A DNA stretch of 64,000 nt from Clytia hemisphaerica. Lineage: Eukaryota; Cnidaria; Hydrozoa; Leptothecata; Clytiidae. Shown here one piece after another: positions 38,773 through 62,727 of this stretch; within the stretch, counting starts at the first letter, position 1; every line of letters starts with the position of its first letter. The DNA lies in assembly GCA_902728285.1 (NCBI GenBank), contig CACVBU010000731.1:248001-312000 (forward strand). Direction: 5' to 3'. The notes under the pieces were generated by a model. It was not told the origin of the DNA. It made no database searches and saw only the letters and a list, made by a program, of their open reading frames with translations. The translations under genes were made by a program, and so were the position numbers.

Positions 38773-39063
38773 ACGCCGCAATATTCATCAAAATTTAACC
38801 GTTGTCTAGTTCTAGAAAGTTTTGATGCTTTTAGATTTACGAGGCAATTTGATCTTTCAAAGATCGTTTTTCAGTCGCATTCATTTAGTACAGACTTCTA
38901 GTTGATTGCAATTCGTTTCATATATTGGCGCCTGAAAATCATTTCATCAAGTACCTGATAAGTGAAGCCAATCAACCCATCAATCACAAGAACCAAAAAT
39001 CAAAACTCTCCTTTCCTTTTCTATAGGTAAAACCATCAAATCAAGAAAGAACACAACATAAAA

Positions 39064-40514
39064 ATGGAATTGAAATATTTTCTGGCATCCTCCATATTTG
39101 TCATCATTGCCATCCAGCTGGCATCATGCTCATCCAAAGCTGAAGAATACAAACAGATGAAAAAGGAAGTGGACGGACTTCTTAAAGAAATCGTCAGTCA
39201 AGAAAACGCCAAACAACACACATCAGGTTTGTTCATTTTTCAAGCTCGAACCATTTCTCTTTGTTCGCTTTTAGATAATTCAGGTAACACTCAAGAAAAA
39301 TTTTACCATGTCCATCAGTAAATCGAAATAAGTGCAAGTGGCTCTGGATATAAGATTGTCTTTTGTCAATCCCTATCGAAAATTATTTTCAACATATATG
39401 AATAATGAGACATGAGTTTCTGCCCGCATAATAGTTTTGATCGATTGTTGGGGAAATATCAAAACTCTTTCTTGAATGATACGTCACCGAGAGCTTCCAA
39501 TATTTTTTATCTAATAACCCCACTTCCATACGACATTGTTTCAATTCCTATCAAAAGTTATTTAGGTGTTTGTTGCCTTTACGTTTTGCAGCAGTTCGGA
39601 AAGAACAGTATCGAGAGTGGTAGCTGAAAAATTTAGCTGAAGATATAGTTCAGGACCCTGAATTTGAAATATAAGAAACTCTCTTTTCTATTTCAGAAAA
39701 GAAATCCAGTCAATGGCTGAATGGAAGATTTGGAAAGAGACAACTGGTATCAGGTAGATTTGGCCGTGAGTTGAAACAATGGTTGAACGGTCGTTTCGGG
39801 CGTGAAGCAACGGAACAGTGGTTGAACGGTAGATTCGGTAAACGTGAAGCTGATCAATGGTTGAATGGAAGATTCGGTCGTGAAGTTGAGCAATGGCTGA
39901 ACGGACGATTTGGCCGCGATGCTGCAGAACAATGGCTTAACGGACGCTTTGGTAAGAGATCTGCCAATCAATGGTTAAATGGCCGTTTCGGTAAAAGGTC
40001 TGCTGACCAGTGGCTTAACGGTCGTTTCGGAAAACGTTCTGCCGACCAATGGCTAAATGGTCGCTTCGGTCGAGAAGCTTCAGCTGATCAATGGTTAAAT
40101 GGTCGTTTTGGACGTGAAGCAGCTGACCAATGGCTTAATGGCAGATTCGGACGAGAGGCAGAAGAACAATGGTTGAACGGCCGTTTCGGACGCGAAGTTG
40201 AACAATGGTTAAACGGCCGTTTTGGACGTGAGGCTGGACAATGGTTGAATGGTCGATTTGGACGTGAAATGGGACAATGGCTCAATGGTAGATTCGGTCG
40301 TGAGGCTGACCAATGGTTGAATGGACGTTTTGGCAGAGAAGCAGATCAATGGTTAAATGGTCGATTCGGACGTGATGCTGCACCACTTGCTGCTAGATAT
40401 GGAGACGAACCTGCCCATGTAGAAAGCCAAACAATCGCTTCTCCTGAAGAAGCTAAACCAAAAGTTGTTGCAGCTGTTAAGGTTGTAAAGAAGCCAGTTG
40501 CAGTGTCCGAGTAG
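39064..40514 (+). CDS. RFamide neuropeptide precursor with 17 QWLNGRFG copies
   Basis: Two exons, 39064-39226 and 39697-40514, encode 326 residues. Residues 1-22 are a signal peptide. A short acidic spacer follows, then 17 copies of QWLNGRFG and one variant QLVSGRFG. Each is followed by R or KR and preceded by D, E, N, G, S or K. Known cnidarian processing would cut at the basic residues, convert Gly to C-terminal amide and form pyroglutamate, giving pQWLNGRFamide. N-terminal trimming at acidic residues is the cnidarian habit. The last 50 residues are an Ala/Lys/Val-rich tail. Synonymous codons vary between copies while the peptide stays identical, showing selection on the peptide. RFamides act as neurotransmitters and neurohormones on ion channels and receptors. 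Confidence 0.96.
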
Positions 40515-41506: not shown

Positions 41507-41822
41507 CTAATCTCTACAACGGTGACAATCTTTTTTAACTTTAGTTAGCGTTCTTTTTATCGTATCCACAGATTTCTTTAAATCTACGCCGGGTAGTTGA
41601 CAAACAAAGTCATGTATTTCGTCACAATCAATACTTTTGAAGCAACCTCTGTCTTCAGTCCCTGATGGATTAATTTGGAATCCAATACAAAGTCCATTTT
41701 CAAGATTGGGTTGGTTTGAGCACCAGTCCCGATACACTGAAGTACTACCATCAATCCAACGAAATTTTGATAATGAACTCCTGTAATTCAAGCCAATCAT
41801 GACGGTTGAGGATTCTAAAAGT
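41507..41822 (-). CDS. Lectin exon 2 of the giant protein (C-terminal half of the C-type lectin domain)
   Basis: Encodes MIGLNYRSSLSKFRWIDGST, then DWCSNQPNLENGLC and DCDEIHDFVCQLP. The position of the sugar-specifying EPN/QPD triplet reads QPN. The downstream WND calcium motif is replaced by SID, so calcium-dependent sugar binding is uncertain. A Lys-rich tail with CHRC ends the protein. Confidence 0.9.
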
Positions 41823-44800
41823 CTGTGAAAAAAAAGACTGGAGTCGTTAATAATTCGTGTAATACAATATTATGATTGTTATATGATATAAATGTAACGA
41901 GATGATATTTTGTTTGTCCCTCCAAATATTTCTTGCTTATCTTTTACTATGTCTGAATAAGTCATCTAGAATTGACTAGTAAAAAAATTTATCGAAATCA
42001 AATTTCTTAGTAAATAAAGAAATTTTTTCTTTCAAAATTTAACTTTTGAGATTTTGCTAGATGTCAGCCGGAAAGTTTGCCCTAATTGCAGTATCGGTGA
42101 TAAGTTGGTGTTTGTATTAGTAAAATTTTGTAATAAATTGACAAAGGAATAATTACATCTTTTACAAAAAGGTAATGTACTTTAGGCGTACAAACTTTCG
42201 CGAACAGAAACTTTCGCGAACAGAAACTTTCGCGATTTTCGCGAATTTAAGCCCTTTTCGCGAAAGTAAATGTATTTAAAAATTCTAGGAAGGGCCATTC
42301 GCGAAAGTTAATGCTCGCGAAAAACCCTTGACAAAATAGAAAATCTGTAAAACTTCAAATTTTGATAAAAATGTAACTTTATGGCACTTTTTAGCCTGCT
42401 AAATGACTAATAAGTCAAAGGACAAATGTTTGAAAGTCAATCCAAGAAGTATTTCTCCCTCTAAGCTATTTTTTCAATTTTCTCAATTTTACGTCTTGAT
42501 TCGCGAAAGTTTATGCTCGCGAAAAATATTTTTCCGTTAAATTCGCCAAAGTAAATGTCGTGAATTTCGCAATTTTTCGTCCTCGCGAAAGTTTCTGCTC
42601 GCGAAAGTTTGTACGCCTAAAGTATGCAATGGAAAAAGAGAATTTAAATTTAAATCAACTTACGCCGGTAAATGAACCAAGAGAAACGAGTTCAAATCTC
42701 GGTTACGGTGAAGGCTCTCTACGCTAACAAGTTCTCTACCATTGCGTCTGCAAAACTGATATGCCATTTCAAAATTCAATTTCTCCCCCATTGTGCATGA
42801 ACTAGATCCTAACATAAATCGTGTGTCTGAAATCAAACTGTTACATGACGACAAACCTTCAGCTACCACTGGAAGTGGTGCTGGTGCGACACTGTCATCT
42901 ACATCTAGACTTCCGTCTTCTGGTTCGGTTGATTGATTTGGAGGTGAAGACGGATTTGCTTCTGGATTGTTTCCTTGATTTGGAGGTGAAGATGGATTTG
43001 CGTCTGGATCGGTTCCTTGATTTGGAGGTGAAGATGGATTTGTATCTGGTTTGTTTCCTTGATTTGGAGGTGAAGATGGATTTGTGTCTGGTTTATTTCC
43101 TTGATTTGCTGGTGAAGATGGATTTGTATCTGGTTTGTTTCCTTGATTTGGAGGTGAAGATGGATTTGTATCTGGTTTGTTTCCTTGATTTGGAGGTGAA
43201 GATGGATTTGTATCTGGTTTGTTTCCTTGATTTGGAGGTGAAGATGGATTTGTATCTGGTTTGTTTCCTTGATTTGGAGGTGAAGATGGATTTGCATCTG
43301 GTTTGTTTCCTTGATTTGGAGGTGAAGATGGATTTGTATCTGGTTTGTTTCCTTGATTTGGAGGTGAAGATGGATTTGTATCTGGTTTGTTTCCTTGATT
43401 TGGAGGTGAAGATGGATTTGTATCTGGTTTGTTTCCTTGATTTGGAGGTGAAGATGGATTTGTATCTGGTTTGTTTCCTTGATTTGGAGGTGAAGATGGA
43501 TTTGAGTCTGGTTTGTTTCCTTGATTTGGAGGTGAAGATGGATTTGTATCTGGTTTGTTTCCTTGATTTGGAGGTGAAGATGGATTTGTATCTGGTTTGT
43601 TTCCTTGATTTGGAGGTGAAGATGGATTTAAGTCTGGTTTGTTTCCTTGATTTGGAGGTGAAGATGGATTTGTATCTGGTTTGTTTCCTTGATTTGGAAG
43701 TGAAGATGGATTTGTATCTGGTTTGTTTCCTTGATTTGGAGGTGAAGATGGATTTGTATCTGGTTGTTTCCTTGATTTGGAGGTGAAGATGGATTTGTGT
43801 CTGGTTTGTTTCCTTGATTTGGAGGTGAAGATGGATTTGCATCTGGTTTGTTTCCTTGATTTGGAGGTGAAGATGGATTTGTATCTGGTTTGTTTCCTTG
43901 ATTTGGAGGTGAAGATGGATTTGTATCTGGTTTGTTTCCTTGATTTGGAGGTGAAGATGGATTTGTATCTGGTTTGTTTCCTTGATTTGGAGGTGAAGAT
44001 GGATTTGTATCTGGTTTGTTTCCTTGATTTGGAGGTGAAGATGGATTTGTATCTGGTTTGTTTCCTTGATTTTGAGGTGAAGATGGATTTGTATCTGGTT
44101 TGTTTCCTTGATTTGGAGGTGAAGATGGATTTGTATCTGGTTTGTTTCCTTGATTTGGAGGTGAAGATGGATTTGTATCTGGTTTGTTTCCTTGATTTGG
44201 AGGTGAAGATGGATTTGTATCTGGTTTGTTTCCTTGATTTGGAGGTGAAGATGGATTTGTATCTGGTTTGTTTCCTTGATTTGGAGGTGAAGATGGATTT
44301 GTATCTGGTTTGTTTCCTTGATTTGGAGGTGAAGATGGATTTGTATCTGGTTTGTTTCCTTGATTTGGAGGTGAAGATGGATTTGTATCTGGTTTGTTTC
44401 CTTGATTTGGAGGTGAAGATGGATTTGTATCTGGTTTGTTTCCTTGATTTGGAGGTGAAGATGGATTTGTATCTGGTTTGTTTCCTTGATTTGGAGGTGA
44501 AGATGGATTTGTATCTGGTTTGTTTCCTTGATTAGGAGGTGAAGATGGATTTGAGTCTGGTTTGTTTCCTTGATTTGGAGGTGAAGATGGATTTGTATCT
44601 GGTTTGTTTCCTTGATTTGGAGGTGAAGATGGATTTGTATCTGGTTTGTTTCCTTGATTTGGAGGTGAAGATGGATTTGTATCTGGTTTGTTTCCTTGGT
44701 TTGGAGGTGAAGATGGATTTGTATCTGGTTTGTTTCCTTGATTTGGAGGTGAAGATGGATTTGTATCTGGTTTGTTTCCTTGATTTGGAGGTGAAGATGG

Positions 44801-47800
44801 ATTTGAGTCTGGTTTGTTTCCTTGATTTGGAGGTGAAGATGGATTTGTATCTGGTTTGTTTCCTTGATTTGGAGGTGAAGATGGATTTGTATCTGGTTTG
44901 TTTCCTTGATTTGGAGGTGAAGATGGATTTAAGTCTGGTTTGTTTCCTTGATTTGGAGGTGAAGATGGATTTGTATCTGGTTTGTTTCCTTGATTTGGAG
45001 GTGAAGATGGATTTGTATCTGGTTTGTTTCCTTGATTTGGAGGTGAAGATGGATTTGTATCTGGTTTGTTTCCTTGATTTGGAGGTGAAGATGGATTTGT
45101 ATCTGGTTTGTTTCCTTGATTTGGAGGTGAAGATGGATTTGTATCTGGTTTGTTTCCTTGATTTGGAGGTGAAGATGGATTTGAGTCTGGTTTGTTTCCT
45201 TGATTTGGAGGTGAAGATGGATTTGTATCTGGTTTGTTTCCTTGATTTGGAGGTGAAGATGGATTTGTATCTGGTTTGTTTCCTTGATTTGGAGGTGAAG
45301 ATGGATTTAAGTCTGGTTTGTTTCCTTGATTTGGAGGTGAAGATGGATTTGTATCTGGTTTGTTTCCTTGATTTGGAGGTGAAGATGGATTTGTATCTGG
45401 TTTGTTTCCTTGATTTGGAGGTGAAGATGGATTTGTATCTGGTTTGTTTCCTTGATTTGGAGGTGAAGATGGATTTGTTTCTGGTTTGTTTCCTTGATTT
45501 GGAGGTGAAGATGGATTTGTATCTGGTTTGTTTCCTTGATTTGGAGGTGAAGATGGATTTGTATCTGGTTTGTTTCCTTGATTTGGAGGTGAAGATGGAT
45601 TTGTGTCTGGTTTGTTTCCTTGATTAGGAGGTGAAGATGGATTTGAGTCTGGTTTGTTTCCTTGATTTGGAGGTGAAGATGGATTTGTATCTGGTTTGTT
45701 TCCTTGATTTGGAGGTGAAGATGGATTTGTATCTGGTTTGTTTCCTTGATTTGGAGGTGAAGATGGATTTGTATCTGGTTTGTTTCCTTGATTTGGAGGT
45801 GAAGATGGATTTGTATCTGGTTTGTTTCCTTGATTTGGAGGTGAAGATGGATTTGTATCTGGTTTGTTTCCTTGATTTGGAGGTGAAGATGGATTTGTAT
45901 CTGGTTTGTTTCCTTGATTTGGAGGTGAAGATGGATTTGTATCTGGTTTGTTTCCTTGATTTGGAGGTGAAGATGGATTTGTATCTGGTTTGTTTCCTTG
46001 ATTTGGAGGTGAAGATGGATTTGTATCTGGTTTGTTTCCTTGATTTGGAGGTGAAGATGGATTTGTATCTGGTTTGTTTCCTTGATTTGGAGGTGAAGAT
46101 GGATTTGTATCTGGTTTGTTTCCTTGATTTGGAGGTGAAGATGGATTTGTATCTGGTTTGTTTCCTTGATTTGGAGGTGAAGATGGATTTGTATCTGGTT
46201 TGTTTCCTTGATTTGGAGGTGAAGATGGATTTGTATCTGGTTTGTTTCCTTGATTTGGAGGTGAAGATGGATTTGTATCTGGTTTGTTTCCTTGATTTGG
46301 AGGTGAAGATGGATTTGTATCTGGTTTGTTTCCTTGATTTGGAGGTGAAGATGGATTTGTATCTGGTTTGTTTCCTTGATTTGGAGGTGAAGATGGATTT
46401 GTATCTGGTTTGTTTCCTTGATTTGGAGGTGAAGATGGATTTGTATCTGGTTTGTTTCCTTGATTTGGAGGTGAAGATGGATTTGTATCTGGTTTGTTTC
46501 CTTGATTTGGAGGTGAAGATGGATTTGTATCTGGTTTGTTTCCTTGATTTGGAGGTGAAGATGGATTTGTATCTGGTTTGTTTCCTTGATTTGGAGGTGA
46601 AGATGGATTTGTATCTGGTTTGTTTCCTTGATTTGGAGGTGAAGATGGATTTGTATCTGGTTTGTTTCCTTGATTTGGAGGTGAAGATGGATTTGTATCT
46701 GGTTTGTTTCCTTGATTTGGAGGTGAAGATGGATTTGTATCTGGTTTGTTTCCTTGATTTGGAGGTGAAGATGGATTTGTATCTGGTTTGTTTCCTTGAT
46801 TTGGAGGTGAAGATGGATTTGTATCTGGTTTGTTTCCTTGATTTGGAGGTGAAGATGGATTTGTATCTGGTTTGTTTCCTTGATTTGGAGGTGAAGATGG
46901 ATTTGTATCTGGTTTGTTTCCTTGATTTGGAGGTGAAGATGGATTTGTATCTGGTTTGTTTCCTTGATTTGGAGGTGAAGATGGATTTGTATCTGGTTTG
47001 TTTCCTTGATTTGGAGGTGAAGATGGATTTGTATCTGGTTTGTTTCCTTGATTTGGAGGTGAAGATGGATTTGTATCTGGTTTGTTTCCTTGATTTGGAG
47101 GTGAAGATGGATTTGTATCTGGTTTGTTTCCTTGATTTGGAGGTGAAGATGGATTTGTATCTGGTTTGTTTCCTTGATTTGGAGGTGAAGATGGATTTGT
47201 ATCTGGTTTGTTTCCTTGATTTGGAGGTGAAGATGGATTTGTATCTGGTTTGTTTCCTTGATTTGGAGGTGAAGATGGATTTGTATCTGGTTTGTTTCCT
47301 TGATTTGGAGGTGAAGATGGATTTGTATCTGGTTTGTTTCCTTGATTTGGAGGTGAAGATGGATTTGTATCTGGTTTGTTTCCTTGATTTGGAGGTGAAG
47401 ATGGATTTGTATCTGGTTTGTTTCCTTGATTTGGAGGTGAAGATGGATTTGTATCTGGTTTGTTTCCTTGATTTGGAGGTGAAGATGGATTTGTATCTGG
47501 TTTGTTTCCTTGATTTGGAGGTGAAGATGGATTTGTATCTGGTTTGTTTCCTTGATTTGGAGGTGAAGATGGATTTGTATCTGGTTTGTTTCCTTGATTT
47601 GGAGGTGAAGATGGATTTGTATCTGGTTTGTTTCCTTGATTTGGAGGTGAAGATGGATTTGTATCTGGTTTGTTTCCTTGATTTGGAGGTGAAGATGGAT
47701 TTGTATCTGGTTTGTTTCCTTGATTTGGAGGTGAAGATGGATTTGTATCTGGTTTGTTTCCTTGATTTGGAGGTGAAGATGGATTTGTATCTGGTTTGTT

Positions 47801-50800
47801 TCCTTGATTTGGAGGTGAAGATGGATTTGTATCTGGTTTGTTTCCTTGATTTGGAGGTGAAGATGGATTTGTATCTGGTTTGTTTCCTTGATTTGGAGGT
47901 GAAGATGGATTTGTATCTGGTTTGTTTCCTTGATTTGGAGGTGAAGATGGATTTGTATCTGGTTTGTTTCCTTGATTTGGAGGTGAAGATGGATTTGTAT
48001 CTGGTTTGTTTCCTTGATTTGGAGGTGAAGATGGATTTGTATCTGGTTTGTTTCCTTGATTGGAGGTGAAGATGGATTTGAGTCTGGTTTGTTTCCTTGA
48101 TTTGGAGGTGAAGATGGATTTGTATCTGGTTTGTTTCCTTGATTTGGAGGTGAAGATGGATTTGTATCTGGTTTGTTTCCTTGATTTGGAGGTGAAGATG
48201 GATTTGTATCTGGTTTGTTTCCTTGATTTGGAGGTGAAGATGGATTTGTATCTGGTTTGTTTCCTTGATTTGGAGGTGAAGATGGATTTGTATCTGGTTT
48301 GTTTCCTTGATTTGGAGGTGAAGATGGATTTGTATCTGGTTTGTTTCCTTGATTGGAGGTGAAGATGGATTTGTATCTGGTTTGTTTCCTTGATTTGGAG
48401 GTGAAGATGGATTTGTATCTGGTTTGTTTCCTTGATTTGGAGGTGAAGATGGATTTGTATCTGGTTTGTTTCCTTGATTTGGAGGTGAAGATGGATTTGT
48501 ATCTGGTTTGTTTCCTTGATTTGGAGGTGAAGATGGATTTGAGTCTGGTTTGTTTCCTTGATTTGGAGGTGAAGATGGATTTGTATCTGGTTTGTTTCCT
48601 TGATTTGGAGGTGAAGATGGATTTGTATCTGGTTTGTTTCCTTGATTTGGAGGTGAAGATGGATTTGTATCTGGTTTGTTTCCTTGATTTGGAGGTGAAG
48701 ATGGATTTGTATCTGGTTTGTTTCCTTGATTTGGAGGTGAAGATGGATTTGTATCTGGTTTGTTTCCTTGATTTGGAGGTGAAGATGGATTTGTATCTGG
48801 TTTGTTTCCTTGATTTGGAGGTGAAGATGGATTTGTATCTGGTTTGTTTCCTTGATTTGGAGGTGAAGATGGATTTGTATCTGGTTTGTTTCCTTGATTT
48901 GGAGGTGAAGATGGATTTGTATCTGGTTTGTTTCCTTGATTTGGAGGTGAAGATGGATTTGTATCTGGTTTGTTTCCTTGATTTGGAGGTGAAGATGGAT
49001 TTGTATCTGGTTTGTTTCCTTGATTTGGAGGTGAAGATGGATTTGTATCTGGTTTGTTTCCTTGATTAGGAGGTGAAGATGGATTTGATCTGGTTTGTTT
49101 CCTTGATTTGGAGGTGAAGATGGATTTGTATCTGGTTTGTTTCCTTGATTTGGAGGTGAAGATGGATTTGTATCTGGTTTGTTTCCTTGATTTGGAGGTG
49201 AAGATGGATTTGTATCTGGTTTGTTTCCTTGATTTGGAGGTGAAGATGGATTTAAGTCTGGTTTGTTTCCTTGATTTGGAGGTGAAGATGGATTTGTATC
49301 TGGTTTGTTTCCTTGATTTGGAGGTGAAGATGGATTTGTATCTGGTTTGTTTCCTTGATTTGGAGGTGAAGATGGATTTGTATCTGGTTTGTTTCCTTGA
49401 TTTGGAGGTGAGATGGATTTGTATCTGTTTGTTTCCTTGATTTGGAGGTGAAGATGGATTTGTGTCTGGTTTGTTCCTTGATTTGGAGGTGAAGATGGAT
49501 TTGTATCTGGTTTGTTTCCTTGATTGGAGGTGAAGATGGATTGTGTCTGGTTTGTTTCCTTGATTAGGAGGTGAGATGGATTTGAGTCTGGTTGTTTCCT
49601 TGATTTGGAGGTGAAGATGGATTTGTATCTGGTTTGTTTCCTTGATTTGGAGGTGAAGATGGATTTGTATCTGGTTTGTTTCCTTGATTTGGAGGTGAAG
49701 ATGGATTTGTATCTGGTTTGTTTCCTTGATTTGGAGGTGAAGATGGATTTGTATCTGGTTTGTTTCCTTGATTTGGAGGTGAAGATGGATTTGTATCTGG
49801 TTTGTTTCCTTGATTTGGAGGTGAAGATGGATTTGTATCTGGTTTGTTTCCTTGATTTGGAGGTGAAGATGGATTTGTATCTGGTTTGTTTCTTGATTTG
49901 GAGGTGAAGATGGATTTGTATCTGGTTTGTTTCCTGATTTGGAGGTGAAGATGGATTTGTATCTGGTTTGTTTCCTTGATCTGGAGGTGAAGATGGATTT
50001 GTATCTGGTTTGTTTCCTTGATTTGGAGGTGAAGATGGATTTGTATCTGGTTTGTTTCCTTGATTTGGAGGTGAAGATGGATTTGTATCTGGTTTGTTTC
50101 CTTGATTTGGAGGCGAAGATGGATTTGTATCTGGTTTGTTTCTTTGATTTGGAGGTGAAGATGGATTTGAGTCTGGTTTGTTTCCTTGATTAGAAGGTGA
50201 ATCCGGACAAACTTGACAAAGGACATAGTTTTTCCTATTCTCATCCACATCTTTGTTGTCGTTGTCATTATAGTATTCGATTATTCTTTGAAGTCCTTTC
50301 CTAAAAATTAATTAATCAAAAGGAAATCTATTTAATTACAATCCATAAGGGCCTAGTATACTAATAACATGCTACCTTACAGTCGTTGTACTAGCCATAA
50401 CTTTCATTAAAGTGCCACCGTAGCAAAACGAACACATAGACTTGAATTTGCTTTCAAAAGGAATGGTATTAGCCCTTACACGTTACAGTAATTTTTGACT
50501 TCTTGTCTGATCTGAGACAAAATTCAGTTTTCAAATGCTCTGGACATGCTCTGAATATTCCACTTCCATCTCATGAAGATTTCCTCACAAGTGATTACAA
50601 TTATATGTCAATTATGAAAATAGAAAATTACATACTTTTTAAGAAAATCATCAAGAGTATTTTTTAATGAGGAGTCAAGTTGCTTTCTTGGAATCCCAAT
50701 CTTTGTATTAGGAATCTCAATAGATTGGTCAGAACACATGGATTTTGCTATCTTGAGTGAAACCTTTGACGTTAATCTGAATGCACAATCATTCCCTTGG

Positions 50801-52252
50801 TTGACGGATGTTTCATCTAAATAGAAAAGAAACTTTTGAGAAAGGGGGGGGGGGTTTCATGGTTGGCGGAGGAGCGGAATCGGCCCTTTTTTCAGACGGA
50901 GTGGCGGTATTTGGCGGAATTTGGCAAAAATTTAGACGGAATTACGGAAATTGGGTTCTCTGACGGAGACGGAAAATTAGACAATTTTAGTACGGAAAAA
51001 CGGAATTTAGCAAAAAAATTTGCGGAATTTCGGAATTAGTAAAAGATATTCAAAATTTGTGGAGTTTTAGACAAAAATATTGAATTTCAAAGGAATTTTC
51101 GGTGACGGAATTTTGGTTCAAATTAAGACGGTTTGACGGAAATTGGAGAACAATTTGGCGGAATTGCGGAATTGGGTACCCCCTGAAACCCCCTCCCGAG
51201 AAAGGTAATCGTGGTAAAAACAAGTAGAAAACGCACTTACTAAGACACCCCTGTATCAGTGACCCAGTTAATGGGTTAATTTTAAGCTTTGGAAATCAAT
51301 CAAAGTTATCGTATTAGTATATTAACTACTACTGTAAACGAATCCTTCTATTAAACGCCCCCCTCGAATAAATGGCACCTTTAGGAGGCAAAAGCTTTAA
51401 CCACTATAGGGTAAGATAGAGAACCTAGATAAGAATTGGGGAGAGTGATGTCAGTGATCCCATAGTTTAGGTTATTTAATTGGTTGCTTTTTGAAAATAT
51501 ATTTAAATTTCCGATTTAGCCACAGATTTGATTATATGCTTATGAAAAAGAAGAATTTTACCTTTATTGCACCCAGCTTTGCCGACATTAGTTAAAAAGT
51601 TAGAATTTGAAAGTTCACTAAACTTCTTTGCAGTAAATACATTCTTTTGATCTCCAGCAATGTCGATCAATTCTTTCTTGTCCACACCATTTCCCATACC
51701 GATCGATATGATTCTGATACCTTCAGCTCTTAATTCTCTGGCTACATCTCCAGGATCTTCACCTCCTCCAGTCTGGGTTCCATCTGTTAGCACAAACAAT
51801 ATTTTCTCCACGCCATCCCTGGCACCATTCTCAGCTGTGAATAATTGATTTTGTGCTAAGCGTAACGCTCTATCGATTCTTGTGTTTTCATTCATAAGTG
51901 CAATTTTATCAACTGCGCCAGTAAATGATTCGATTGTCGTATATTCGTTTAGTTTAATACTTAACTCGGCTTTTGCACTGAACGTAACAACGCCTGCCCT
52001 GGCTCCATTTTCAATATCAAATGAAGCAACCAAGGCACTGACAAATCTTTTTTCTTTGGCATAGTCACTTCTTATGCTTCCAGAAGAATCAAGAAGGAAA
52101 CCAATATCCACTCTTGAATTACATACAAAATTGTCTGCATGTGCTGGAGCTAAGAGAAAAAAAGATTTGATGAAAAATAATTCATAATTGAAAACAGTCT
52201 TTACTGGAAAATTGATGCTTGACATTATCAACAAAGCTAAAACACCTTCCAT
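41507..52252 (-). CDS. Giant secreted vWA / 14-residue repeat / C-type lectin protein
   Basis: Four exons, 51562-52252, 50636-50816, 42664-50300 and 41507-41822, join in phase. In order: hydrophobic N-terminus ending APAHA-D (likely signal peptide); von Willebrand A domain with a full metal site (D55-S57-S59, T123, D156); an unknown linker of about 90 residues with paired cysteines (CQVC); about 173 repeats of NPSSPPNQGNKPDT; then one C-type lectin domain. The assembled exon has 13 single-base deletions. With those counted back the protein is about 2,945 residues and the phase fits exactly. The Pro/Asn/Ser repeat is probably an extended stalk between an adhesion domain and a lectin. I know no named family with this layout. 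Possible roles are extracellular matrix, nematocyst or mucus adhesion, or immune recognition; none is shown. Confidence 0.85.
42180..42622. mobile_element. MITE with CTTTAGGCGTACAAACTTTC ends, TA-flanked
   Basis: Inverted ends of over 30 bp, TA on each side. The interior is full of TTTCGCGAA words. It lies in the last intron of the giant lectin gene. Confidence 0.88.
42664..50300 (-). CDS. Giant repeat exon with N-terminal half of the lectin domain
   Basis: The exon enters after TTTTTAG with GLQRIIEYYNDNDNKDVDEN and CQVCPDSPSNQG. It runs through the whole repeat array, then leaves it in the same frame via EPEDGSLDVDDSVAPAPLPV into SSCTMGEKLNFEMAYQFCRR, the start of the lectin domain. The canonical frame is present at both ends. 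Its length of 7,637 misses the required phase, but 7,637 plus 13 fits. Confidence 0.85.
42930..50195 (-). repeat. 42-bp coding minisatellite, about 173 units
   Basis: The unit encodes NPSSPPNQGNKPDT. Most units are identical at DNA level, especially from about 45.7 to 48.04 kb where some 56 units are the same. Variant units change the Thr codon to Ser, Leu, Glu or Ala. The unit has no stop codon in any of the three minus frames, and in one plus frame. Confidence 0.97.
50636..50816 (-). CDS. Linker exon of the giant protein
   Basis: Acceptor ATTTAG, donor GTATGT. Encodes about 60 residues (DETSVNQGNDCAFRLTSKVS then KSMCSDQSIEIPNTKIGI) with two cysteines. No family recognised. Phase 1 in and phase 2 out match its neighbours. 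Confidence 0.75.
50846..51197. mobile_element. hAT-type element with poly-G/TTTCA ends
   Basis: G-run then GGGTTTCA at left; TGAAACCCCCTCCC at right. Perfect 8-bp duplication GAGAAAGG. The interior has GCGGAATTTGG/GACGGAAT words. It lies in an intron of the giant lectin gene. Confidence 0.8.
51562..52252 (-). CDS. First exon of the giant protein: signal region and vWA domain
   Basis: Encodes 230 residues. VDIGFLLDSSGSIRSDYAKE opens the domain and FVLTDGTQTGGGEDPGD carries the last metal-site Asp. The region ahead of APAHA has two hydrophobic pieces. An intron-like GTAAAG...CTCTTAG (55 bases) lies within, but removing it breaks the frame, so I keep it coding. The donor is GTAAAA after GCAATAAAG. 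Confidence 0.88.
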
Positions 52253-52695
52253 TTTAAATTAAATATTATTAGCAAGTAGCTTTCGCTATGATACTCCCGA
52301 TGACAGGCATTTGACAGTGATTGATTGAAATTCAGAAAAGACGAAATGCCGTGTTTATTTTTGTCAGAAACACAAGTAATATTGCAAAGTATTCAATTTT
52401 TCTCAGCCATAGCTTGCACTAAACATGCCCCCTTTAATAGATACCTTATAAAGCTTGAATTACAAAGATTTTCATGTTTTATAGGCAGGGTCTTGGAATA
52501 GTCTTCAGGAAATATTTAGAATGACTTTCTTCTCAAAAGCATTTTCTTTGAAACAACAACAACAAAAATAAAAATAACAAACATATCAAAACATGAATTT
52601 ATAATTCCCAAGACTATATTTTGACAATGATATAATTTTCAGCTACGTTGTTGTCTATATCGTAATGTATTATTGTTTGGTAAAGAAAACAGTGG
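52253..52695 (-). promoter_or_regulatory. Upstream region of the giant lectin gene
   Basis: TTTATAAG on the minus strand (about 52447) is a possible TATA box some 190 bases before the ATG. A hAT-type MITE ends this region 443 bases upstream. Confidence 0.3.
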
Positions 52696-52984
52696 CCCGG
52701 GGGGGGTACTAGGGCAAAATGGGTTACGGGGATGCTCCGCTGGTCAGGGTACCTTTTTTAACCTCCACGAGTCCCAGGTAGGGTCGCAAAAACACCAAAA
52801 TAGAAAAATCAGTCCCTCGTAGGGTGCCTATTTTTGGAAAATTTGGGGAAAAAGTAGAAAATTTAGCAATTTCAGTCCCATTCAGGGTCACTTTTTTCGC
52901 AAATTTCGAGTCCCACGTAGGGTCCATTTTTCGAACCTCAGCGGAGCACCCCCGTCGGTCGACAAGGGTAGTACCCCCCCCGGG
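52696..52984. mobile_element. hAT-type MITE with poly-G/poly-C ends, copy 3 (reversed)
   Basis: Same element as at 20.3 and 26.2 kb, in the opposite orientation, flanked by the perfect 8-bp duplication AACAGTGG. It lies upstream of the giant lectin gene. Confidence 0.93.
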
Positions 52985-54118
52985 AACAGTGGGTACAGAA
53001 GCATTCCAAAACCAAAATGATTCAAAATACAACCAGACAACAGGAACATAACATGAAATGTCCTTCAGGAATTTCTCCAACAAAAGGAGTGTTAATGTCA
53101 AGTTTGTGTACCGTCAACTGGGATTACTTGAGATAAAATGGGACATACTGCTTTCTGGTCAGCTTTTTCTCTCTATCGTCACATCCTCTTCAACAACAAA
53201 CAGATTTCCATGATTCTTGGACAGTACAAAAAAGATGATTCTGTGGAGGTTCGGTTAAAATGGTTGCTGTTTTGGTGTCCCATTGCACAAACATTGCTCA
53301 GCTCCATTAAAAACGCAGACAATTCATTCCAATTCTTGTTCAACATTTTGAAGTCAAAACTCTTGTGTCATTAAAATGTATATTAAAATAAAGTTTGATG
53401 ATTGGTTGAACAGCTGCTATCTTTGTGTGCAAACTCAGCGTTTTTGAAGCAGCGATTCAGACCTCGTAAAAACATATAATGTCAATCTGGCTTTAAAGCA
53501 GTTGACGGTACATCCAACGTGTAAAACTACTTTAATGGTTAATATGGTATTTGTCATGGTGAATGAACGCAGGCTGGAAGGCAAAACCATAAAGCTGAAA
53601 TAGAAATAGAGAAGAAGAAACTGTCATTAGATAATTTGTAATAAATATCCAGGTGATGTCAAACTGTTTGATTACCGTGAAACAGGGTAATCACTGGAGG
53701 GAAACTGGTATCGCCTCCAAATAGTAGAGCTTTCTGGTAATAAAATTGTAAAAATTCAAAAGTCAAAAACATTTAATTTATATTTTAGCTTAGACAAAGT
53801 CCAGACCAAGAAAGGTCTGCAGTTTGGAGGCAATGTAAAGTTTCCCTCAAATTATGCAAATTACCCTTTTTCACTTCATGGGTACCAATCTAATCTAACA
53901 CTATCAAACGATAGGTGTTAAAGTACAAATTACCGCAACCAGACTTGACTTTTCGAAACTAAAAGATTCTGGTAAAGTTGAATTACTGTTCGAACGACCC
54001 TGCCGATTCCCCGGACTCCAGAGATTTTCTTGTTGCGTGTCCAAGGATTTTAACATTACTTTTTGAGACTTACCCCGGACTGAACTCGTGGTCTGCAAGA
54101 CGTACTTAAACAATATTC
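52985..54118. other. Intergenic; no gene seen
   Basis: Short open frames only, none with coding features. Confidence 0.35.
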
Positions 54119-54452
54119 CTTTAGGCGATCGCGACGGACTATTGAATAAGTGTTTCCACCAGCAATAATTATTAGCATACCTAATTCCACCAGCTTAAAT
54201 TATGATACCTCCATACTTCAGTAGATGCAAGTGAAACCAGCTGGAAATTGGATATTACCTACAGATAAGATTGTTCAAATTGGCACGCTAACAACTCTCT
54301 CGAAGTAGCACACGGTAATGTTGCAAATTTTCCATTTATACAACTAATTTTCTGTAATACAGAACAAATGATTTCCGGCCCACACATCTTGGGGTAAGTA
54401 ATTTATGCTGGTGGAGTTACTTATTCAATAGACCGTCGCAATCGCCTAAAGG
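54119..54452. mobile_element. MITE with CCTTTAGGCGAT ends
   Basis: Inverted ends of about 40 bp: CCTTTAGGCGATCGCGACGG, then ATTGAATAAGT and CCACC, with the complement at right. Few mismatches. Confidence 0.75.
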
Positions 54453-54551
54453 ACTAGGTATCAGATGATCAATTTCACCATCCCTATTCTGCACGGTTTC
54501 ATGCAAACTTAGTCGACAGTGCGTTAACTCGTGACAACACGTTCACTTATC

Positions 54552-55185
54552 CAGCCGTCAGTGTAGACCTAACTCGTCACACAAAAATTACGAGAAAAGG
54601 AATGTTTGGACTTTGTACCCTATGCTGCACTCAAGCACTTAAGCCAAAGTCCTGCAAAAGCGGGACAAAAATCAGTCTTTTGAAGTTTGCAAAAAAACGC
54701 CACATAGAAGATCTTTCAAATTCAGTATGTGAATAGAGCAGTAAAAAATACAACTTTTCTATTTTTCCTTTTTTTTGCAAAAGTTCTAGGAATGAAAATA
54801 AAGGGATAATGATAATTGAATACTATCCATTGATGACCTGCGGCAATATCGTAAAGCTAGAATCGCTTCGCGTGCTCTTCGCTTGAGAAAATGATTGACA
54901 GATTGAAGTTTTTCACCCACGCAGGAGTTCGCGGAGCGTTCTCGGCTCAATCCTCGGACCGCGCTAAAAATGGTAGACTGAGCTGTGATAGATCATTTCG
55001 ATGGAAGTTAGTTGGAATGTTTACAAGGCTCTTGACAGAAAATCGTTTGTTTTATTGTCAATGATGACAGTGCGGTTATTAACTTTGTTATATCTGACAA
55101 ATTGATGTTTATAGTTTTGATTCCCATTGAAGAATCATATTCTGGTTTTCATGTTATTAGATGCTGTTTTAGAGCTTTAGGTCTA
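54552..55185. repeat. Dispersed 0.65-kb repeat with inverted ends, copy 2
   Basis: Second copy of the 18.74-kb repeat, with a few small deletions. The left end AGTGTAGACCTAA is inverted at right (TTTAGGTCTACA). Confidence 0.75.
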
Positions 55186-55444
55186 CATGGCCGTGTGGTT
55201 CACTTATCTGGCAGCGCAATTTGTTTGTACGTCTGGGGATAGAAATATTTCTTTCGTTCGACAGGGTCGTCTTTGATCAGGTTCAGTAACCAAACACCTA
55301 TAGTTTGATTCTGTTTGATAGTTCAATTACGAAAATTTGGATCAATTGAATTCAATTGACATCGTCTGGAGATAAACAGAAGGTTGTTAATGGTGGTATG
55401 CAAAGTTTTTTCCAATTTCTGTAAAGTACCTAACTGACAGTAAA

Positions 55445-55884
55445 CCAGACGTCCGCGCTCGATAGGATCAATCATTGGAATGGCTCGATGACGGATCGAT
55501 ATGTGATCGATGGATTACTTAACGATCCGGATAGGAGATTGATGACGATGGAGGATCGATACTCAAAATTTCTTATGATTAGTTATCGATTATTTATCGA
55601 TCTATCATCGATCTTTTATCGATCTTATCTACCCTATCCACTCATACTTGATTTACGATTGATAACAAATTGATTAACGATCGATGACGAATCGATTAAC
55701 AGATGACGAATCGATTTATAACGATCGATGACGAATCGATATACTCGATTGAAATACTAGCTTGATAATGGATCAACGAAGGATCGATACTTAAGACTTT
55801 TTAATGGCAGATAATCCATCGATCACATATCGATCCGTCATCGAGCCGTCCCGATGATCGATCCTATCGAGCGCGGACGTCTGG
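55445..55884. mobile_element. Fold-back element with about 65-bp inverted ends and ATCGAT-rich core
   Basis: Begins CCAGACGTCCGCGCTCGATA and ends with its complement. Pairing continues through GGCTCGATGACGGATCGATA. Flanked by AGTAAA on both sides. The core is an unusual run of ATCGAT/GATCGATGACGAATCG words. Confidence 0.85.
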
Positions 55885-56177
55885 AGTAAAGTAACTGACA
55901 GACTACTGATGCCTGATTATACAACAAGGATACAAAGCAAAAAGAAATTCTTTAAAATAATTTTCAATCATACATCCTATCTGAAACCTTACTTTTGATA
56001 AAATAGTATTATACTTACTATCAAAGTTGCAGAGAACAGTATAGTATATGGGATTATACCTTCTACTTTCTGAAACCAACTCGTCCCAAGTTGCTTCGTT
56101 GCTTTTTGTTGTTGTATTCCAAGCTATGACTTTGGAGCGCTAAAGACGCTAAATTTCTGTTCACGCGGTGTTGTTGT

Positions 56178-56479
56178 CACAGATATCTAAGCCCGAAGGG
56201 CTAGATTTGCAACTTTAAGCTTTCTCCAGCAAAAAAAAGTGAAGCAAAAATTTGACTTTTTAAATTTCGTGCCGATGGATAGGATCTAGCATTTTAATTG
56301 TTTTCGGAGCGCGAGATCAAAAAACGTAGGCGACAAACGCTATTTCACATCTCTCAAACCGGTGAAATTGCATATTTTAGTCACGTGACTCTGGTAGGAA
56401 ATCCTTCCAAACCAAAGATGAGCTTCACTTTTTGATAAAAGCCGCAAATCTAGCCCTTCGAGCTTTACAGATATCTGTG
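56178..56479. mobile_element. MITE with CACAGATATCT ends and AAGCCCGAAGGGCTAGA arms
   Basis: Left CACAGATATCTAAGCCCGAA and on through GGGCTAGATTTGC is inverted at right. Flanked by directly repeated 45-bp stretches (CCAAGC.ATGACTTTGG.GCGC) at 56105 and 56480. Confidence 0.75.
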
Positions 56480-56526
56480 GTTGTTGTTTTCCAAGCTTTG
56501 ACTTTGGGGCGCCAAAAACGCAAAAT

Positions 56527-58494
56527 ATCATCGGAAAATCTATAGTTAGTATTCTCAAAGAGGACATTAAACAATCGATTGGATCCCTCCAGGTCTGCGC
56601 CGGGCAAGACGCAGGATGCGAAGCAGCCGTTCACGCTATGCGTACACTATTTGAGGAAGATGAATCCGAAGCAGTTCTATTAATTGATGCTGCGAACGCC
56701 TTCAATGCCGTGAACCGAAACGTCTTTCTTCACAACGTAATAATCATCTGTCCACCTCTTTCGACATTCGTACAAAACTGCTACCAATCACCAGCCCGTC
56801 TTTTTGTTTTCGGGGGAAAGGAACTAAAATCTACTGAAGGAACTACACAGGGAGACCCAATTGCAATGTTTGTATATGCTATAGCAACTATTCCCCTAAT
56901 CGTGCGTTATGTTCTCCGTGAGGAACCGTCTGATGAGAAAGCAAGAACAGCCGGATATGCTGATGATTTATTCGGTGCCGGGACAATTTGGGAACTAAAA
57001 CAGCTTTGGCTGTACATTCGAGATGAAGGCCCTAAATTCGGCTATTACCAGCAAGAGGAAAAAACTGGCTAATAGTCAAACCAGAATTTTTATCTGAGGC
57101 GATAGAGATTTTAGCGATACACAAGTAAAAATTACAACAGATGGCCGAAAACACTTGGGAGCAGCAGTCGGCAGCCTAGAATACAGGGACGAATTTATCA
57201 ACGAAAAAATTGACGATTGGGTGAGTGAACTGAGTACGCTCGCAAAGATTGCCAAATTTGCCCCACAAGAGGCGTATACATGCTTTACGGCAGGCTATAA
57301 ACATAAGTTCAATTATTGTATGCGGACGATCCCTGATGTTTCAGCGTACTTTAATAGGATCGACAACGTCATTTCAACTGAGCTTATACCCGCTATCACC
57401 GGTGGAATTGTACCCTCAGAAATTGAGCGCAAACTTTTCTCTCTCCCGCCAAGCAAAGGAGGACTTGGAATCCCAATATCAGTGAACAAGCAAATTTTGA
57501 GTTCGCCAATTCGTGCTTAGTTACCGAGGCACTTCAAAACGATATTACAAATCAAAACACTGCGGCCAGCGACGAGAACGAAGCACAAATCAAAACGGCA
57601 AAGTCTATCATTCGAGAACGTAAAAAGAGCAGAATAAATGAACTTTTGAACACAATAAAATCATCAGACGAAATGTCAAAGGCGAAACTTAGGTTGCTCA
57701 ATCTGACAGTGAATGTGGCGCGTCATTATGGCTTACCACCCTTCCCATCAAGGACGAGGGGTATCAACTGGACAAACAATCATTCTGGGATCTCCTCAAG
57801 ATACGTTACGGGTATCAACTCTCACGTCTTCCCGAAAGATGTCCATGCGGGTCCCCCTTCAACATCCAGCATGCCTTATCATGCAAAAAAGGTGGATTTG
57901 TAACCCAACGTCACAATACTCTCCGCGATGTCACTGCTAAGTTGATGACTGAAGTGTGCAACGACGTAAAAGTTGAACCACCATTAAGTGAACTGACTGG
58001 AACGATTTCGTGAGACGACCGCTAATGTCACACCCGAAGCTCGTCTGGACGTCTCCCGCTCGCAATTTCTGGGTCACTCACCAAAGGGCTTTTTTGACAT
58101 AAGGGTTTTTTAACCCAACAGCCCGGAGGTATGCTGACTTGGAAATCAAAAGTGTTACGAGATCAACGAACGTGAAAAGAAAAGGCAGTATAATGAACGA
58201 GTATTGAGAGTGGAGCATGGGTCGTTTAGTCCCATGGTATTCAGTGCTTTTGGTGGGATGGCAAGAGAATGCAGCATGGTCATAAAAAGACTTGTTGAAC
58301 TTCTCGCTGACAAAAGAAAAACTAATGTCAGCCTTGTTTCGTCGTGGGTTAAGAGAAAGATCAACCTCTCGCTCATGAAATCGCTGGTATACTGTGTCCG
58401 AGGAACCAGACACCCATGGTATCGAGACGATTATATTGTCTCTTCATGCTCAAATGACACTGATGCTTCGGAAGTGAGCTCAGCCTTCAATTAG
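56527..58494 (+). pseudogene. Degenerate retroelement with reverse transcriptase
   Basis: Reverse-transcriptase blocks are readable in order: QVCAGQDAGCEAAVHAM, LLIDAANAFNAVNR (first catalytic Asp), EGTTQGDPIAMFVYAIATIP, and AGYADDLFGAGT (YADD catalytic pair). The thumb region follows, then a CPCGSPFNIQHALSC finger-like motif, then FFDIRVFNP and a C-terminal block ending near 58494. The finger followed by an FFD-type segment recalls retroelements with restriction-like endonucleases (inference). About seven or eight frame breaks occur, mostly one-base losses in homopolymers. They may be decay or assembly error. No ends or target duplication found. Confidence 0.8.
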
Positions 58495-58875
58495 AATATA
58501 ATATATATATTTCGCCTATGATAGGATTATTTGTTTGTTAAAAAAAATATCATTTTTTTTTGCTAGCTCGTGTTAGCCAGTCAACCGTGGTCCTGGCAAA
58601 TATATATACTTTCTCTTAAATATCTGTTCGCGCGGTTGAGCTAGCTTAAAAGCTCACGACACGGTAGTCTGAATCGCAGACCTCTACAAAACCACAGGTA
58701 GTATATATCTATAAGGAGCACGAATCCGTTAGTGGATGCCAGCAGCCTAACGACACGGCAATCTTTTAGAAGCGGTCACTTTAGGTTACATCGTCCCGTT
58801 TTTTTTTTCTTGAACAATTTTTCGCCAGCTCGATCCCCCCAGCACGGCCTCGTGAAGCAACTAGCCAGTACCCAG

Positions 58876-59208
58876 CCCGGGGGGGGGGGTACTAGGGTTG
58901 CATGCGAGCTGACGGGGGGGTGCCACCTGACTTTCGAACTTTGGACCCTTACTACCGGGACTAAAAAGGAGAAAACAAAGGAAAATTTTGGGAATTTTAC
59001 GACCCTTAGCAGGACTAATTTGACCAATTTTGAACAAATTTTGATTTTTCAGGGGGTAAAAAGTTGAAATTTTCCTATTTTTCCAACCCTTACTGGGACT
59101 GAAATTTGATTTTTCCGACCCTTAGCGGGACTTTGGAAGTCCAAAAAAGGTACCCTTAAGGGCGGCACATACCGTACCCTCCATTTGCCTAAGTACCCCC
59201 CCCCCGGG
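58876..59208. mobile_element. hAT-type MITE with poly-G/poly-C ends, diverged copy
   Basis: CCCGGGGGGGGGGGTACTA to AGTACCCCCCCCCCCGGG. The 8-bp duplication is GTACCCAG or TACCCAGC (one base ambiguous). The interior is clearly different from copies 1-3 (CGGGACTAAAAAGGAG), so it is a related subfamily. Confidence 0.85.
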
Positions 59209-59468
59209 TACCCAGCATAAAGTCCTTTTAGATGTTGAAGGTGGCTTAAAAGCACGATGAAATTAAAGAGAAGCAAAAATCTCTAAAGTGTCACTCTAGC
59301 CCTTTCAGGTGACGTATCTTTTAACCATATTTAGATTGTGTCCCCGTGACGTATTCTTTTGTTAAGGTCAAAGATTAACAGGAAAGAGCATTGTTATTAA
59401 AATTATACCGTACCAGTGTCGTCCGAAACGACCCTGCAAGTAGATATTCTTCTCGCTTCACTTGCGTC

Positions 59469-59581
59469 AAAGGTTTTGTTTTTAAATAAAAGTGATATCG
59501 TGTCAATCCAATGTGAAAAAACGTGCGAATTAAAATTGACGAGTAAGCAAACGATATTACTCTTATTTAAAACAAAACCTT
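59469..59581. repeat. Hairpin with about 32-bp arms
   Basis: AAAGGTTTTGTTTTTAAATA...GATATCGT and the complement ACGATAT..TTTAAAACAAAACCTTT, with a loop near 50 bases and few mismatches. Confidence 0.65.
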
Positions 59582-60616
59582 TAATTATACCGTATAATTT
59601 GTCATGGTAGAGGAGTGAAATGGAGAAATGACGATTCTTCAGGAAAAAGCGTGAAAGCCACGACGAAATTTTGTTTTGTTTTGAAAAGAATTCGAATGCC
59701 ATTAATAAATACGGTCGTCAATTACATTCGAAAAAAATGTAAAACAAACGAAAAGAGAAAAACAAAGGGGCGGGCAAGCCAAGGCAGAATATATAATTGC
59801 TAAATGAAGACAGGGCTTTAATTTCAAAACAAAGGCTGAATGAAGTATGAACCAGGCTCTCTCCAATCTATCAATCGAAACAATAACTTATAGAGAACAA
59901 AAACATTGCGTGCCAAAACGAAAATAGAACACACAGAAAACAAACAAAGTGGCATACAGACTACGGCTAATAATATAGATATTATTTTATAGGAGAAAGT
60001 AAATAGTTTTTGCAAGAAGTAAGAGGCATCGTTACAATTTACAATTCTCTCTCGGGGTTACGAAAACTTTTTCACATTCATTCAATTGATTCGTACTTTT
60101 ACTTAAACCATGTTCAGACGTGTTATGGTTTCAAGTCGCTCCGGTAAGGCTTTTTGTTACGGATGATAGGAAATGTTCATACTGATTTCGGAACGTTTCG
60201 GAGCAACAAAACGGGGCCGTTCTGTTCCAATGAAAATGTTGGAGCAAAACTTTAATAAAACACACAGTCTTTGGTGATATTCTATTGTTCTCAGGTCAAA
60301 AAATCCAGAGATGGTTTGGATGGCATTTTTTCCATTGAATTTCAAATTGGGATGAAAACAACGTCAATATTCTAATTGGGGTATTCTTCTCACTGGGGAC
60401 GAAATTTCCACCAAATTTTCCATGGGATGGTGGGGGTCCAAGTGGCGCACTGGCGGATTTAAGACAATACTTACGTCAGTAACATGCGAAGGAGTGCAAC
60501 GCTCGTTAAAAGACAATAAAATTACAATTACAAATCTCTTCTTCTGATAAGTTGTGGTCTAAAACCGCTTATGCAGCTGGGTCTGCGACACAGGGATTTT
60601 ATAAAATAGGACTCAC
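59582..60616. other. Intergenic; no gene seen
   Basis: 60.3-60.6 kb has eroded similarity to the 23.77-kb MITE (GGGGACGAAATTTCC, GGGTCTGCGACAC). Otherwise empty. Confidence 0.35.
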
Positions 60617-60766
60617 CACAAAACCAATCTTTGTTTTGCTTTAAATTGTTTTGTTTAGCATAATCTTCAAAAAATTTGCAGTCATCTTGTTTTTCATGTC
60701 CGTCAGAAATCGACAAACATATCCCATAAATTATAATAAAACTATTGCCTCATTTGCCAATTTCAT
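60617..60766 (-). CDS. Candidate first exon of a small secreted Cys protein
   Basis: A donor TGTG|GTGAGT follows a frame with SISDGHEKQDDCKFFEDYAK and KDWFCG. Upstream in the same frame is a hydrophobic run SFIIIIYGICLS, and an ATG (MKLAN) lies one frame off. One missing base would give a normal signal peptide and the right donor phase. The candidate depends on that assumption and on an unseen second exon. Confidence 0.25.
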
Positions 60767-60867
60767 TCTTTTCTTCATTTTTTCTCCATTCGAATTCTAG
60801 CTTCATTTGCTAGCTCTGAAATAGGATTTTTGTACTAAACTTCATCTTTGTGTGAAGAAAAGAAAAA

Positions 60868-61880
60868 CAATGGCACTTCTTCTTTTTCATTTCATAATCT
60901 ATTGTAACGCTTTTAGAATTGTCGGTGCAGTGTGTCAAAAATTGTCATTTCCCTCTTCACGGCTTTCAAATTCTATAGTTTACAGATATAAGACTTAGTG
61001 CTCACAATAGCAATCTTCCTTATGAAATCCCAAAAAAAATTAATTGAAAGAGCATTTACAAGGAAACAGTGACGGTGCTTGAAACAATTAGCTTCCGGCT
61101 AACGTGTAGCTATGACCTATCATAATAATAGATGAAAAGCAATGTATCGGTCATGACCTAAAATGTCGTTTAAATCTTTTGTAAATCCATAGAGAGCGGT
61201 GATCTTTGATGTACTTAAATGTTGATTAGCCATTAAATAACCATCAAGAAGACAACAATTATTTCATTATCTCTTAACGTCAACTTTAGGTTGGGAAAAG
61301 AAGAACAATAGCACTTCTTCTTCTATTGTAACGCTGTCAAAACATGTATTTCCCTCTATTACACCATAAAACGTTGCGATAAATTTTGCACTCTCTTTCA
61401 CCATCATTGTAAGTTTTTTTGCTTTCATTACCATTTCTTCAGAAAACATTATAAAATGAGCAATGAGGTTCAGAAGTGGAGGTTCACGGCTTTTATATCT
61501 ATAGCTTTACAGATTTAAAGGGACATAAGAGTAGTAAAATGTAAACATTGCGCGAACCACGTGTTATTAAAGAGAACAATTAAAATCACGTGTCCAAAAC
61601 AAACTTGTAAAACAATTGAAACAATCAAAATCAGCCATATTTGGTTTGATTTTTTATTTTGACATGTGACATTTGTTTTGATTTTGTATCCCGCTGCATA
61701 CTGCGTACGGTTTGTTTACAAATTTCGTCAGTTCTGTTATTTCCCTTAAAGAGTTAGTGCTCACAATAGCAAACTTCCTTATGAAATCCCAGAAAAAAAT
61801 TAATTGAAAGTGCATTCACAAGGAAATGCGGTGACGGTGCTTGAAACAATTAGCTTCCGGCTAACGTGTAGCCATCATAA
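60868..61880. repeat. Tandem segmental duplication interrupted by a MITE
   Basis: 60868-61135 and 61308-61880 share GCACTTCTTCTT, CACGGCTTT...CTATAG, GTGCTCACAATAGCAA and GAAACAATTAGCTTCCGGCT in the same order. The second copy carries the piggyBac-type MITE. Confidence 0.75.
61519..61745. mobile_element. piggyBac-type MITE, TTAA-flanked, copy 2
   Basis: Starts AGGGACAT after TTAA and ends TTTCCC before TTAA; the right end has lost a base relative to copy 1. The other duplicate arm shows the near-empty site (ACAGATATAAGACTTAG). Confidence 0.85.
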
Positions 61881-62727
61881 TAATAGATGGGTGCTTTTTC
61901 CTTACGCTAGATAGATAAGTGGTTCTCATCAACGGTCCTTTTCATAAAATTCTAAGGGTTGTAAAAAATATAGAATGAAGATTCGTGCTTAACATCAGAT
62001 TTTGATCGCTTCATATCAGCATTCCAGATTTAATGTCGAAAATTGTCCATTAAACCGCCTTTTGTTCTCCAAGAGAGGGGTTGAGCTCTCTTGGCTTAAT
62101 GACCAATTAAGGGCTCTGACCATACTCCAAAAGTTGATTTTGGTATTTGAACATAAAAGTTATATTTCAGGCTCCTTAACACTTTTAACAAAGAATTGCC
62201 TTTATAAATTTATTTTTAATCGAATCCCTTAAGAGTAATTAAGAATTTAATTGCAAAAATGACATTATGAACTTTAAAAAGATGTTAATAATATGATGCA
62301 TCACCCTCTTTTACAAAAAGTGCGTAGTTTTAATGGGTAATTAACTTTTTTGTTTCAAATTTTCTTTACACTGTCCGCAAAGAATTGAACTATTTTAAAT
62401 TTTGCGGAAAATTTTTCTAAAAAGATGTGTCAAAAGTTATGACTGTTTTTTTAAGCAAAATCCAGATGAAAAATTGATGAAAAACCACTATTTTGAAGAT
62501 TTCGAGACAAAGAAGCATTTACAAAAATTTTCCGCAAAAATTTTTATTGTTCGGTAAAAGATACACCATGTAATGCGAAAAATTTTTCAAAATGTTTTTT
62601 CTTCGCCGAAACTAAGCTCTTCAAAGTTGAAACACTCTTCCTCGCAAAAGTCTTCATTTTCTTCTTCATCAGATTTTTTCAATGCAATTTTTTCAGATTC
62701 ATGAATAGTTTTTCTAACAGAAAATGT
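61881..62727. other. Intergenic; no gene seen
   Basis: AT-rich with a weak inverted pair around TTTTGCGGAAAATTTTT. Nothing else recognised. Confidence 0.35.

Follow-up and report, generated by a model that had tools for sequence, protein, structure and literature searches.

The combination of a von Willebrand factor A (vWA) domain with a C-type lectin-like domain (CTLD) has been described in nematodes and in a hydrozoan. In a nematode survey, CTLD class V has one CTLD plus one or two vWA domains, with 14 members in C. elegans, 9 in A. suum and none in the five other species of its table (PMC5297725). A survey of Clytia hemisphaerica counts proteins that contain von Willebrand factor and CTLD domains (PMC8260672). 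Here we describe a predicted gene in a 64,000-nucleotide stretch of C. hemisphaerica DNA (the window), in which the same two domain kinds are held apart by a very long array of 42-bp repeats. The gene resembles nematode class V because a vWA domain and a CTLD are predicted in one protein, but the accessible text on class V does not describe a giant repeat spacer (PMC5297725). It shares the pair of domain kinds, and probably the species, with the proteins of the C. hemisphaerica survey, counted there by domain pair without description of a spacer; this gene may be among them (PMC8260672). That survey implies the existence of other vWA–CTLD genes in the Clytia genome (PMC8260672). The first-pass annotation of this DNA had proposed a new protein architecture. 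As a new architecture per se, vWA plus CTLD was rejected, because the pair is known in nematodes and in the C. hemisphaerica survey (PMC5297725, PMC8260672). No description of a giant repeat between the two domains was found in a limited search of the open-licence literature. The domain pair is therefore already known in animals.

With moderate confidence, we read the locus as one gene encoding a secreted tether of about 2,940 residues, in the order vWA domain, four-cysteine linker, about 173 copies of NPSSPPNQGNKPDT, and a CTLD with a CxxC tail. The gene spans 52252–41507 on the minus strand, from the A of an ATG to the final base of a stop codon, and its CTLD is split over two exons. Its features are as follows.

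51562..52252, minus strand: exon 1 as read here, with a possible signal peptide (5' end uncertain) and the vWA domain with a complete metal-ion-dependent adhesion site (MIDAS)
50636..50816, minus strand: inferred exon 2, 181 nt, first part of the four-cysteine linker, flanked by AG and GT
42664..50300, minus strand: exon 3, with the linker end (CQVCPD), the 42-bp array, an acidic Pro-containing hinge and the first CTLD half
42919..50201, minus strand: the 42-bp array, 173.7 copies encoding NPSSPPNQGNKPDT, with 13 single-base deletions
49411..49935, minus strand: deletion-dense stretch, with 9 of the 13 single-base deletions
41507..41822, minus strand: exon 4, with the second CTLD half, the C-terminal tail with CxxC and the stop codon

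The first-pass annotation had given the limits 41507..52252, the order vWA, repeats and lectin, about 173 repeats, a complete vWA metal site and a lectin with QPN but without WND, and all of these were borne out by the coordinates above and the profile matches and motifs given below. It overlooked the exon at 50816–50636.

The four exons are joined at GT/AG sites picked by eye, and all three joins are in frame. The GT donor of exon 1 starts at 51561, and the 181 nt of exon 2 put the vWA exon in frame with exon 3. The phase of the NPSSPPNQGNKPDT repeat enters the array from the upstream flank (CQVCPD) and exits into the downstream flank with the CTLD. At the 3' end of the array, the repeat and the first CTLD half share one open frame. 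Given these compatible splice phases and an array phase that continues into either flank, vWA, linker, array and CTLD likely belong to one gene. The same observations count against two separate genes, that is, a vWA gene that ends close to the array or within it, an independent CTLD gene, and a minisatellite between the two by chance. The absence of any real stop in the repeat frame among 73 substitutions also disfavors this alternative, which we regard as improbable. Splicing inside the array is unlikely, because its coding strand has a single GT, near the array 3' end, compared with 88.3 expected from base composition. Exon 3 starts and ends in the same phase by arithmetic, so that skipping of the whole exon would preserve the frame but remove half the CTLD. 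The intron between the two CTLD halves contains a repeated CTTTCGCGA motif at 42192–42640 (minus strand), including a 16-bp tandem at 42192–42235, which is possibly a dispersed repeat.

Both domains match their profiles well, on either side of the array. The vWA domain matches PF00092 with 129.2 bits (curated cut-off 23.8; E = 2.5e-37) over profile positions 1–170 of 174. The MIDAS motif has the form DxSxS...T...D, and its residues are present here as DSSGS 55–59, T124 and D157. Against solved chains, the best vWA match is collagen VI alpha 3 (E = 8e-66 for several domains taken together). Mussel PTMP1, which has two vWA domains, is also similar to this vWA (E = 4.3e-44 over both domains, with stronger single domains than collagen VI alpha 3), but to our knowledge it has no CTLD and no such spacer. 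PTMP1 of the mussel byssus is reported as collagen-binding (PMC4754843).

The CTLD, with its two exons joined, matches PF00059 with 41.7 bits (curated cut-off 22.6; E = 2.1e-10) over positions 2–106 of 107, and its best matches among solved chains are the IgY receptor, LY75, the PLA2 receptor and the mannose receptor. Sugar-binding C-type lectins have an EPN/QPD-type motif plus a WND motif for calcium. In contrast, this CTLD has QPN and no WND, and GCF occupies that place.

The array was detected by Tandem Repeats Finder with period 42, 98% matches and a score of 14013. When the partial end units are counted, 127 of 175 aligned units are perfect, and the longest perfect run has 56 copies. An 84-nt query of two repeat units gave 90 listed matches in the genome, all within this array, in a search that skips common words. 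Each 14-residue unit has 4 Pro, 3 Asn, 2 Ser and one each of Gln, Gly, Lys, Asp and Thr, and this composition leaves the spacer with about no net charge. No N-glycosylation sequon exists in the unit. Mucin-like domains are tandem repeats rich in Ser, Thr and Pro with O-glycans attached; the unit here has 4 Pro, 2 Ser and 1 Thr in 14 residues, and O-glycans on it are putative. For a disordered chain, the 2427 residues of the spacer correspond to a contour length of about 750–870 nm and a relaxed end-to-end distance of about 50 nm, using common chain-length constants and a scaling law. The stalk of several hundred nanometres suggested in the first-pass annotation thus holds for the stretched length only, and its spacer of about 2,400 residues is right in length but is not one open frame in this assembly; the 13 deletions had gone unnoticed.

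Substitutions in the array occur as variants common to several copies, as unequal exchange would produce. At three of the four copies with an L variant, an S variant follows 126 nt later, and two of these three L+S sets lie 378 nt apart. When changes were taken one at a time, stops arose once in the repeat frame and four and eight times in the other two, which is too few for proof of the frame. The lone stop in the repeat frame is not real, since its codon carries two changes and reads TCA.

Several points weigh against the one-gene reading. The gene model was read from DNA alone. Exon 2 is predicted from splice signals and phase; it matches no Pfam family (best E = 0.15), and an alternative acceptor within exon 3 could keep the frame without it. 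Elsewhere in the genome, no match to the linker had an E value below 0.127. For a secreted product, the signal peptide at the start of exon 1 is a candidate with an uncertain 5' end, and no upstream signal exon was found in a scan of 52150–62000 under the filter used. A GT...AG pair within the first part of exon 1 was rejected as an intron because it does not keep the phase. In the array itself, no clear sign of purifying selection was observed: when each distinct change is counted once, synonymous changes in the repeat frame make up 8 of 28, close to the random expectation of 24%. By every occurrence, 31 of 73 substitutions relative to the unit are synonymous, although these occurrences are not independent.

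A further point is that the array frame is broken by 13 single-base deletions, without any insertion; one uninterrupted open frame through the assembled array was therefore rejected. A 14th gap, called at the final unit, was left out of the count as an edge effect. The frame that enters from the upstream flank holds over 4955 nt of the array, and the other two frames over 1702 and 625 nt. As assembled, the joined exons drop out of the repeat frame within the seventh copy and give 2514 residues; the CTLD is not reached, because the frameshifted reading stops at about 43630. This assembled reading is what would be expected if the deletions were real and a once intact gene were now a frame-broken allele, whose product would be the vWA domain and the linker, followed by a few repeats and then by frameshifted sequence. 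The distribution of the deletions does not fit this well. Nine of the 13 lie inside 525 nt, a clustering that none of 100000 random placements gave. Twelve are in homopolymer runs (contexts read by eye), which make up 26 of the 42 unit bases (chance 0.018). No deletion occurs within the 56-copy perfect run, and the reading frames of the vWA exon and of the two CTLD halves are intact. Because all 13 are single-base deletions without insertions, mostly in homopolymers and with 9 clustered, they would be consensus errors of the assembly in a long, nearly identical array, and a truly broken allele is unlikely.

The relatives of both ends were searched in the own genome (951 contigs, 417.4 Mb; C-numbers are contigs and L-numbers are fetched loci), in which the window corresponds to C507, 248001–312000. 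Of 243 candidates for PF00092, 150 were scored, and the figure of 150 vWA matches is therefore a lower bound. The vWA domain is 55–60% identical over its full length to the units of a tandem cluster on C508 (51–62% when partial pieces are included), and 28–34% identical to units of C8 and C899. The C508 cluster differs from this gene by its many vWA copies; two Fasciclin domains, possibly of a separate gene, lie downstream of it on the same strand. The region downstream of a vWA cluster on C276 has a Thr-Pro-rich stretch and one match to Fasciclin that falls short of the cut-off. The 9.9 kb downstream of each cluster gave no CTLD of the subfamily described below, which also weighs against the one-gene reading. 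Four vWA units at C508:662127–667348 (L003–L006) have identical scores and a spacing of 1,571–1,572 nt, and look like a very recent tandem duplication. At C577:214610–227125, ten vWA matches are reported within a single giant open reading frame of 6,677 residues.

Searching with the CTLD gave 30 matches at E ≤ 0.01, of which 2 are its own exons, and the nearest others are on C312 (42–43% identical). Stretches of 9.9 kb were fetched for the top 15 of the 28 other matches; some overlap, and L028/L029, L034/L035/L041 and L038/L039 look like near-duplicates. Fifteen paralogue rows were aligned, of which one was excluded for being out of frame. The 14 readable rows, several of them near-duplicates, all have GCF at the WND place and CxxC near the C terminus, as in this protein. 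This Clytia subfamily (C312, C49, C647, C577 and others) shares with the gene the GCF for WND, a YR.WC motif and the CxxC tail, and at L028 the two CTLD halves are likewise in separate open reading frames. In contrast, the spacers of the subfamily are collagen-like, short PAPAPPPP or not recognised. Gly-X-Y stretches were found 5' of the CTLD at L030, L031 and L032, of which L030 and L032 look like copies. They stand directly before the CTLD halves at L030 7501–7731 (plus strand), L031 8214–8537 (plus strand) and L032 2425–2658 (minus strand). PAPAPPPP stretches are present at L034 and L035, which both cover one place, and at L042, and no clear Pro-rich spacer was found at the remaining stretches under the filter used.

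Neither this vWA nor the linker was found in any of the 15 stretches (tblastn, E 0.01), and this, too, counts against a single gene. On contigs common to the vWA and CTLD lists, the next nearest vWA is 155 kb away from a CTLD, a figure that used 59 of the 150 vWA positions with every contig represented. These two results speak for two separate genes, and the continuity of the repeat frame into both flanks speaks against them. By sequence comparison, each end of the predicted protein is shown to be akin to a separate gene group of the same genome. In the one-gene reading, the gene would have arisen by exchange of the domain and spacer joined to a Clytia CTLD. A wider proposal, which we put forward tentatively, is a hydrozoan adhesin system that uses one CxxC-tailed lectin module with exchangeable spacers (collagen-like, short PAPAPPPP, or an NPSSPP array able to grow by unequal exchange), in which spacer length would be fast-evolving and variable between alleles.

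If vWA to CTLD is one gene, its favoured function, by inference, is that of a secreted matrix, mucus or glycocalyx tether. A single transcript would span vWA to CTLD and the product would be secreted. The vWA end may use its metal site to dock on a matrix protein, for instance a collagen. The repeat would act as a disordered, net-neutral and possibly O-glycosylated spacer, which O-glycosylation, if present, would stiffen, and which may have been recently expanded by unequal exchange. The CTLD would bind a second, probably non-classical ligand without a classical sugar site, and the CxxC tail may link chains.

Two other functions were considered for such a tether. In Hydra NOWA and in collectins, the CTLD is also joined to a structural partner, but minicollagen Cys-rich domains or collagen are present where this gene has vWA and the NPSSPP repeat. 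The spacer before this CTLD is NPSSPPNQGNKPDT and not Gly-X-Y as in collectins. For NOWA, the comparison used the minicollagen-type cysteine pattern; neither a CC pair nor this pattern was seen by eye in the pieces of the gene. A nematocyst structural protein, with the tether packed in the capsule or tubule, would nevertheless have precedents, since the C-type lectin NOWA of Hydra, which has minicollagen Cys-rich domains, is placed in the nematocyst tube (PMC10014300) and C-type lectins are found in myxozoan nematocyst extracts (PMC8773148). With that cysteine pattern not seen and matrix or mucus fitting equally, a nematocyst role is rather doubtful. A microbe-capturing pattern-recognition protein in mucus has a small probability. 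CTLD-bearing proteins of Clytia are counted as pattern-recognition candidates (PMC8260672), but the classical sugar site is incomplete, without WND, both here and in the 14 readable paralogue rows.

Other features are present around the gene in the window. An open reading frame at 39675–40514 (plus strand) encodes an RFamide neuropeptide precursor with 17 QWLNGRFG and one QLVSGRFG. The C. hemisphaerica precursor is described with seventeen pQWLNGRFamide and one pQLVSGRFamide (PMC8638164), and a review likewise gives 17 copies for the Clytia RFamide precursor (PMC9545775). This agreement makes C. hemisphaerica (Leptothecata) the very probable source of the DNA. The open reading frame at 39031–39321 has a hydrophobic start and may be the first exon of this precursor. 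Reverse-transcriptase-like fragments, with PF00078 below the curated cut-off, are at 56422–57069 (plus strand) and 63155–64000 (minus strand). Two related 34-bp tandem pairs at 20363–20428 and 52868–52933 are probably a dispersed repeat, because similar translated stretches occur in L031 and L035. An Rfam scan gave no match, and the repeats in the upstream flank of the gene held nothing informative.

Clytia is a laboratory jellyfish that is amenable to expression study and gene removal. Should the 13 frame breaks be errors of the assembly, genes that carry arrays of this sort could appear disrupted in genome assemblies. If the reading with exchangeable spacers is true, the product would be a secreted tether of several hundred nanometres when stretched. 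If the locus is one gene, a coding minisatellite would set the reach of an extracellular tether, and a lectin subfamily with differing spacers would be useful for studying how extracellular proteins gain length.

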